Shown: piece after piece, positions 57,485 to 58,262 of the stretch
How positions within the stretch are numbered: position 1 is the stretch's first letter
Layout of the letters: every line of letters starts with the position of its first letter
NCBI RefSeq assembly: GCF_024972735.1
Contig: NZ_CP087723.1
Location: forward strand, 1,116,001 to 1,180,000
Source: Halalkaliarchaeum sp. AArc-CO
GTDB lineage: Archaea > Halobacteriota > Halobacteria > Halobacteriales > Haloferacaceae
DNA length: 64,000 bases
Reading direction: 5' to 3'
The notes under the pieces: generated by a model
Told to the model about the DNA's origin: nothing
Database searches by the model: none
Seen by the model: the letters and a program-made list of their open reading frames with translations, nothing else
Program-made: the position numbers and the translations under genes

Positions 57485-57568
57485 TCGTTCGAAGAAACGT
57501 CGTTGGAGAGAAAGCGCTTACGGGTTCAGCAGTACGGAATCCAGTAGTTTCGGCCGCACGGTTCCTCA

Positions 57569-57855
57569 CTCGTGTTTTCGAGGTGCTCGCTTCGCTCGCT
57601 GTGACGTCACTCGCGGTTCGCTTCGCTCACCGCTCGTGTTTTCGAGGTGCTCGCTTCGCTCGCTGTGACGTCACTCGCGGTTCGCTTCGCTCACCGCTCG
57701 TGTTTTCGAGGTGCTCGCTTCGCTCGCTGTGACGTCACTCGCGGTTCGCTTCGCTCACCGCTCGTGTTTTCGAGGTGCTCGCTTCGCTCGCTGTGACGTC
57801 ACTCGCGGTTCGCTTCGCTCACCGCTCGTGTTTTCGAGGTGCTCGCTTCGCTCGC
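57569..57855. repeat. 64-bp tandem repeat, about 4.5 copies
   Basis: Units start at 57569, 57633, 57697 and 57761, with a partial 31-base copy from 57825. The copies are identical as far as I can read. Each unit contains the motif gctcgcttcgctcg, the perfect 10-bp palindrome gtgacgtcac and a second cgcttcgctc. There are no spacers, so it is not a CRISPR. The unit length is not a multiple of three and the array sits in a gene-free gap. Confidence 0.9.
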
Positions 57856-57861
57856 ACCTCG

Positions 57862-58035
57862 CTCTCGTCGCGTTGTGCCGCCGAAAAGTGCGTGGGACCG
57901 GATTTGAACCTCGTCGAGACGGTCCGGGCGTGCGGCGCTTCGCGCCGTTCCGGGCTGCGACTCGCCTGGTTCAAATCCTCACCAGATACTCATTCACGGC
58001 GGCACGGCTCCTCGAGCCATTCGCTGCGCTCATGA
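57862..58035. repeat. tRNA-Leu-derived palindromic repeat, copy 1
   Basis: It shares a 49-bp stretch (57862-57910; one mismatch at 57888) with copy 2, starting ctctcgtcgcgttgtgccgc. The last 22 bp (57889-57910) equal the reverse complement of the 3' end of the tRNA-Leu gene at 58178-58262 (acceptor and T arm). An 11-bp ggatttgaacc at 57900-57910 faces its inverse ggttcaaatcc at 57968-57978 across a ~57-bp loop, so the element can fold with T-arm sequences as its stem. Confidence 0.75.
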
Positions 58036-58177
58036 CTCTCGTCGCGTTGTGCCGCCGAAAAATGCGTGGGACCGGATTTGAACCGGACGAAGACTCGCTG
58101 GCGCTCGTCTTCCAGGGTTCAAATCCGCCCTACTCCTTCACTGCAACCTGCTCGCTACGCTCGCAGATATTGTTCAG
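58036..58177. repeat. tRNA-Leu-derived palindromic repeat, copy 2
   Basis: Begins with the same 49-bp stretch as copy 1 (58036-58084), then continues two more bases of the tRNA end (58063-58086, 24 bp identical to 58178-58201). ggatttgaacc at 58074-58084 faces ggttcaaatcc at 58116-58126, with a ~31-bp loop, and ends with ctactccttcactgc (58129-58143) before the tRNA gene. The distance between the copies is 174 bp. Confidence 0.75.
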
Positions 58178-58262
58178 TGCGTGGGACCGGATTTGAACCG
58201 GCGGACCTCTACAGGACAGCGCCCTCAACGCTGCGCCGTTGGCCTGGCTTGGCTACCCACGC
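58178..58262 (-). tRNA. tRNA-Leu (GAG anticodon)
   Basis: An 85-nt tRNA read on the minus strand: the acceptor stem GCGTGGG at the 5' side pairs with CCCACGC, followed by discriminator A (58178). The anticodon loop in GCGTTGAGGGCGC gives GAG, so it reads CUN Leu codons. A long variable arm (about ctgtcctgtagaggtc) fits a class II tRNA-Leu, and the T arm CCGG-TTCAAAT-CCGG is standard. No intron is visible. Partial copies of its 3' end occur at 57889 and 58063. Confidence 0.92.

Follow-up and report, generated by a model that had tools for sequence, protein, structure and literature searches.

A modular hairpin unit built around a copy of the local tRNA 3' end recurs behind the tRNA genes of haloarchaea, and we give about an even chance to the reading that such units are small non-coding cassettes: they would insert at the 3' ends of tRNAs and rebuild the tRNA end there, and T-arm recombination would shuffle and amplify them. 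We favour this reading because local copies lie only downstream of tRNAs, the copied block is a sharp 22 nt, sites are filled in one genome and empty in another, and modules are shuffled, and because of the strand polarity, the covariation, the lack of a linked integrase and the order-wide spread of the units.

The locus from which the analysis started lies in a 64,000-nt window of the Halalkaliarchaeum sp. AArc-CO genome, where the last 22 nt of tRNA-Leu(GAG) are repeated exactly twice downstream of the gene, in direct repeats 174 bp apart. The first-pass annotation had placed the three copies of the tRNA-Leu 3' end at 57889, 58063 and 58178, coordinates that proved exact to the base. In the direction of the tRNA, each unit runs from a tail through an inverted T-arm and a loop to the copy of the tRNA 3' end:

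58178..58262, minus strand: tRNA-Leu(GAG) gene, host of the array (ARAGORN; Rfam RF00005, 44 bits)
58178..58199, minus strand: 22-nt source block of tRNA-Leu(GAG), GGTTCAAATCCGGTCCCACGCA on the minus strand, comprising G52-G53, the T-loop, the 3' strands of the T and acceptor stems and the discriminator N73 (from the sequence, with boundaries from the 136-locus identity profile)
58128..58177, minus strand: tail of unit 2 (proximal), with the tandem-GA hairpin TGCGAGCGTAGCGAGCA
58116..58127, minus strand: inverted T-arm of unit 2, CGGATTTGAACC on the minus strand (inverted repeat I7, 12/12)
58085..58115, minus strand: loop of unit 2, hairpin GAAGAC-GA-GC-GCCA-GC-GA-GTCTTC
58063..58084, minus strand: unit 2 copy of the tRNA 3' end, 22/22
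57980..58062, minus strand: tail of unit 1 (distal), a homologue of the tRNA-Val(GAC) tail in this genome
57968..57979, minus strand: inverted T-arm of unit 1, AGGATTTGAACC, 11/12 complementary to the copy
57911..57967, minus strand: loop of unit 1, family A (GAGTCGCAGCCCGGA...CGGACCGTCTC)
57889..57910, minus strand: unit 1 copy of the tRNA 3' end, 22/22
57858..57888, minus strand: former trailer of tRNA-Leu(GAG) (alignment with the congener)

The pairing of each T-arm copy with an inverted copy, described earlier for the 174-bp direct repeats, was confirmed (12/12 and 11/12 complementary) and gives stable folds. As RNA, the two hairpins reach -32.3 and -42.1 kcal/mol (z -4.9 and -3.3), values attained by none of 200 shuffles each, and as DNA the tRNA-sense strand likewise beat all 200 shuffles. 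Unit 1 and the tRNA-Val(GAC) unit are identical at 66 of 79 positions over the tail end, the inverted arm and the loop start. In the congener, whose tRNA-Leu(GAG) has no unit, the sequence right behind that gene aligns with the 31 nt after the last copy here (57858..57888), and the match starts at the boundary. Abutting the distal unit without a gap is a 64-bp tandem repeat of about five copies (57505-57888) with abundant minus-strand GAGCGAAGCGAG hairpins, so that the hairpin-rich zone reaches well past the reported interval.

A BLAST search of the locus against its own genome returned matches behind many other tRNAs. When each tRNA's own last 20 nt were sought within 1.5 kb downstream, allowing at most two mismatches, copies were found behind 17 of 44 tRNAs here (36 copies) and 10 of 44 in the one congener compared (12 copies), while the upstream sides of all 88 tRNAs in both genomes had none, which places the arrangement far beyond chance. 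Across 136 non-redundant tRNA loci, the last copy corresponds to the tRNA from G52 and G53, the two bases before the T-loop TTC, to the discriminator N73; identity is 0.87-1.00 per position within this block but only about 0.4-0.5 at the first base beyond either end. Since the tRNA keeps its G52-N73 block and the unit repeats it at its far end, the tRNA stays intact. The median distance from the tRNA to the end of the first copy is 125 nt, and the units, at about 86-190 bp, are too short for any gene.

Copy and inverted arm both follow the local tRNA. In cores that were found without the acceptor and carry an inverted arm, the local acceptor matched at 10.4 of 11 positions, compared with 4.9 of 11 over all tRNAs of the genome, and the local tRNA was the best acceptor match for 35 of 38. 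The inverted T-loop tracks the local A/G variant, with 37 and 19 cases in agreement and one in disagreement; beyond about 12 nt the arm is weakly local (3.3/6 versus 2.5/6). Since the unit holds an inverted local T-arm, the arm, loop and copy form a hairpin. The loops themselves are diverse, with 139 distinct sequences in 170 units from 131 loci, and form recurrent classes whose asymmetric internal loops are conserved across families of the order; class F units, for example, stand behind Asp-GTC and Ser-GGA at many loci.

The units are not unique to this site, as a search of other haloarchaea, the check attached to the original observation, made clear. An exact T-arm palindrome (GGATTTGAACC, 15-45 nt, GGTTCAAATCC) occurred in 108 stretches among 84,980 species genomes, 93 of them haloarchaeal. 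In 86 of these 93 the palindrome lies 31-262 nt downstream of a tRNA; by hand count, five of the others have no tRNA in the stretch and in two ARAGORN takes the copy as the gene end. A stricter variant of the pattern was found in 39 of 393 genomes of the phylum, all among the 81 genomes of the own order, and in none of the about 312 phylum genomes outside it. A looser pattern matched 130 of 146 genomes of the order, with no match for the reversed-pattern control; some single matches are the tRNA-Ser(CGA) body, as seen by reading the sequence, and the 111 of 146 genomes with at least two matches are the conservative count. This recurrence in independent complete genomes excludes an assembly artefact. 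Haloferax is among the genera that carry such units.

The same architecture was seen behind Ser-CGA in a woesearchaeote (copy 23/23 by eye), behind Pro-GGG in a Rhodospirillaceae MAG, and behind Pro-CGG in another alphaproteobacterial MAG, where it is tandem and the copy includes CCA (stretches L071, L103, L107 and L134). Because these three share the architecture, the design is not limited to haloarchaea. Palindromes of other kinds were also met. A 23-bp palindrome found in Bifidobacterium genomes and in similar IMG/VR contigs (L064, L065, L133, L164-L169) combines a tRNA-like T-arm with CCAGAGG, lies beside atgccccgctac and is possibly a phage attP. A Saprospiraceae MAG and related contigs carry the dispersed palindrome atacccagattaaagaGGATTTGAACC...tctttaatctgggtat (L074, L075, L120, L149, L157), which has the same 11-mers as family members and was set aside as an unrelated dispersed repeat with no tRNA nearby.

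Comparison with the congener showed many sites filled in one genome and empty in the other, tRNA-Leu(GAG) among them. At sites with surviving orthologous sequence (Arg-CCG, Gly-CCC, Leu-GAG, Tyr and others), what follows the last copy in the filled genome aligns with the trailer in the empty one, indicating that the units sit exactly between the discriminator base and the former trailer. Precise loss through the 22-bp repeats would give the same 'empty sites' as gain, a point against the cassette model. Copy number also varies, with four units behind Leu-CAA here and one in the congener before the same flank. Near-identical palindromes stand at different tRNAs with different tails, yet each finishes with the acceptor sequence of its own tRNA, as at Pro-TGG and Lys-CTT (67/68) and at Val-TAC and Gln-TTG (74/76), where identity stops at the point at which the acceptors begin to diverge. 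The reciprocal case is found in the congener, where the tails of Lys-CTT and Lys-TTT agree at 43 of 44 positions and the loops differ. Only 3 of 31 similar-loop pairs at different tRNAs have similar tails. This makes palindrome and tail separate modules whose breakpoints fall at the T-arm sequences. The original suggestion of a tRNA-derived repeat, mobile or extragenic, holds in kind, the units being polymorphic between congeners and their palindromes recurring at different tRNAs.

The hairpins are strongly polar. Tandem sheared G-A hairpins (type CGAACGAAGTGAG) occurred on the tRNA-sense strand in 110 of 170 loops and on the other strand in one; for tails the counts were 83 and two, respectively. 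In the 300 nt behind 88 tRNAs, 115 sense and 27 antisense tandem G-A hairpins were counted, against a shuffled mean of 12.7. Two loop classes covary, with five and seven pairs changed on both sides; none of 500 shuffles reached their scores, and sliding the partner strand abolished the pairing in both classes. The polarity and the compensatory changes together indicate that the tRNA-sense single strand matters, as RNA or as single-stranded DNA. In the outer arm, where selection on RNA might be told from selection on DNA, G-U pairs were not enriched over A-C pairs.

In the cassette model, recognition or movement would act on the tRNA-sense strand, folded either as single-stranded DNA or as RNA. 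Insertion and exchange would proceed by recombination at the T-arm core GGTTCRAATCC, probably through homologous or host-encoded machinery and not an enzyme of the element, with the 22-nt tRNA end recreated at each insertion. Crossovers at the 22-bp direct repeats could then amplify units or remove them precisely, leaving the tRNA unharmed, and exchange between tRNA loci would swap palindromes and tails. Several observations sit uneasily with the cassette model. Neither an intermediate, be it a circle, single-stranded DNA or RNA, nor an enzyme was seen. A freely inverting T-loop recombinase would not be expected to produce strict strand polarity, and the model does not explain how the inverted arm becomes local, its local match being weak past about 12 nt. 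In addition, some units are stable between congeners (loop identity 0.98 at Ala-CGC and 1.0 at Leu-CAA), as would also be expected of a kept function.

Two rivals are still live, a kept RNA function and a pure mutational hotspot. In the former, which we consider unlikely, the array would be transcribed behind the tRNA, and its hairpin, with a fold under selection, would be freed as a small RNA or would modulate trailer processing or termination, roles of the kind described for the E. coli rtT RNA. The near-exclusive placement of hairpins on the tRNA-sense strand, the compensatory changes in two loop classes and the presence of class F units behind Asp-GTC and Ser-GGA at many loci all favour such a function, as does the annotation of E. 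coli rtT, which has the same architecture, as an ncRNA. However, most orthologous tRNAs have no unit (tRNA-Leu-GAG lacks one in about 24 of 29 genomes), loops and tails are freely swapped, G-U does not exceed A-C in the outer arm, and an Rfam scan of the locus yielded nothing except the tRNA itself, so that a known RNA family was rejected.

The second rival, which we rate as about equally unlikely, involves no mobile element: replication or repair at tRNA genes, with template switching, would produce tandem duplications with inverted junctions, and quasi-palindrome correction would keep the arms local. Both arms are indeed copies of the local tRNA, and the flanks after the last copy often start with part of the tail, as a duplication would leave them. 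Nevertheless, a shared source is needed to explain loops that barely differ between tRNAs whose units have unrelated tails, and likewise the asymmetric loop families conserved across the families of the order; the upstream sides of the tRNAs, moreover, are empty.

The first-pass annotation had also raised att scars. In that case tyrosine-integrase elements, arriving one after another and each restoring the 3' end of the tRNA, would have left the units as remnants. Half of this idea stands: the tRNA 3' end is directly repeated on both sides, and the att-core-like 22-nt block lies at the insertion boundary and spans the T-loop to the tRNA 3' end, which in archaea is a standard sublocation of att sites (PMC8371274). 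The other half does not, and we regard the explanation as weak and quite improbable. Pfam PF00589 marked seven places in this genome and about nine proteins (10 places) in the congener, of which, by coordinates, only one per genome is no more than about 3 kb from a tRNA. In either genome just one or two integrases are near tRNAs, and the check for integrases, proposed for tRNA-Leu, turned up none linked to the arrays. No unit holds cargo, the same loop stands at tRNAs of different identity, phage records gave no match and no contig is evidently haloviral. Every unit also has an inverted arm and a structured, conserved and shared loop, features that are absent from ordinary att scars and that the scar reading leaves unexplained.

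Origins in phages or plasmids were likewise rejected. Phage records held no match to the units, the single plasmid match itself stands behind a plasmid tRNA-Val, and the IMG/VR palindromes resemble those of Bifidobacterium, none looking haloviral. As to a MITE, the BLAST search of the own genome and the pattern searches gave tRNA-linked copies and no autonomous partner; inverted arms are present, but these are tRNA T-arms. A PATE, IS605-derived or REP identity does not agree with the 22-nt duplication at every unit; the genome does have four Y1 transposases, but the units differ from such elements in target and architecture.

The closest known kind is the rtT distal repeat of E. coli (rtT RNA, rttR), which is transcribed into a small RNA and, to our knowledge, has so far been known from one locus. 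At tyrT/tyrV of E. coli K-12, a tail, GGGGAAGGAT, a loop and ATCCTTCCCCCACCACCA follow one another three times at 178 bp, and the record annotates the product as an ncRNA. Both systems consist of tandem non-coding units right behind a tRNA that end in its 3' end, and in E. coli, too, an inverted arm, GGGGAAGGAT, opposite ATCCTTCCCC encloses a loop, with the tandem-GA hairpin on the sense strand only. The E. coli repeats differ in being bacterial and confined to one locus, with 178-bp units and an encoded CCA in the copy, whereas the haloarchaeal units stand behind a quarter to two fifths of tRNAs and have exchangeable loops and tails; we claim no sequence homology between them.

Other systems share fewer features. 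The att sites of tyrosine recombinases of the archaeal SSV, pNOB8 and SNJ2 types also duplicate the 3' part of a tRNA and restore it after insertion, but the present units have no integrase or cargo and possess a palindromic arm, a structured loop and tandem arrays. Integron attC cassettes, with their imperfect palindromes, variable loops and head-to-tail arrays beside a primary site, may work in a comparable way; the likeness is one of analogy only, and the units have no IntI and no gene cargo. The PATEs and SMRs of Haloquadratum walsbyi are also short, non-coding, palindromic mobile repeats of haloarchaea, but they leave their target unduplicated and have no tie to tRNA genes (PMC3119063), whereas the units here always come with a 22-nt duplicate of the tRNA end.

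There is a broader proposal, which we hold to be possible rather than probable: the units may represent a previously unrecognised class of tRNA-parasitic non-coding cassettes, of a design common to archaea and bacteria with rtT as the one noted case, recognised and moved as the folded tRNA-sense strand via the T-arm core and forming integron-like arrays at tRNA 3' ends. The hairpin-repeat design seems to have been noted previously at one E. coli tRNA locus alone, and our literature search, which most subscription papers lay outside, found no description of the haloarchaeal family. With this family, a single-locus curiosity of decades' standing, the rtT repeats of E. coli, becomes a general, testable phenomenon: across an entire archaeal order, tRNA 3' ends bear hairpin arrays that are polymorphic and modular and that track the local tRNA sequence. 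It bears on how non-coding repeats spread without an enzyme, on tRNA 3' ends as recombination hotspots and on the role of haloarchaeal tRNA trailers, and Haloferax offers a unit-bearing genus with genetics.

There is also a practical side, as the copies create spurious ORFs with GFEP...GSNP peptides and mislead tRNA finders. In the window, a 161-aa open frame with the peptide RGTGFEP...GSNP (57711-58196, plus strand) crosses both units in the antisense direction; frames of this kind probably enter databases as spurious hypothetical proteins. ARAGORN appears to fuse a tRNA body with a 3'-end copy as if an intron lay between them (stretches L083, 335-543, and L099, 841-2018). On the 828-kb plasmid of Natronorubrum bangense, a tRNA-Val(CAC) that is missing from the listed annotation is followed by a unit with a near-local copy (L266, 2862-3090).
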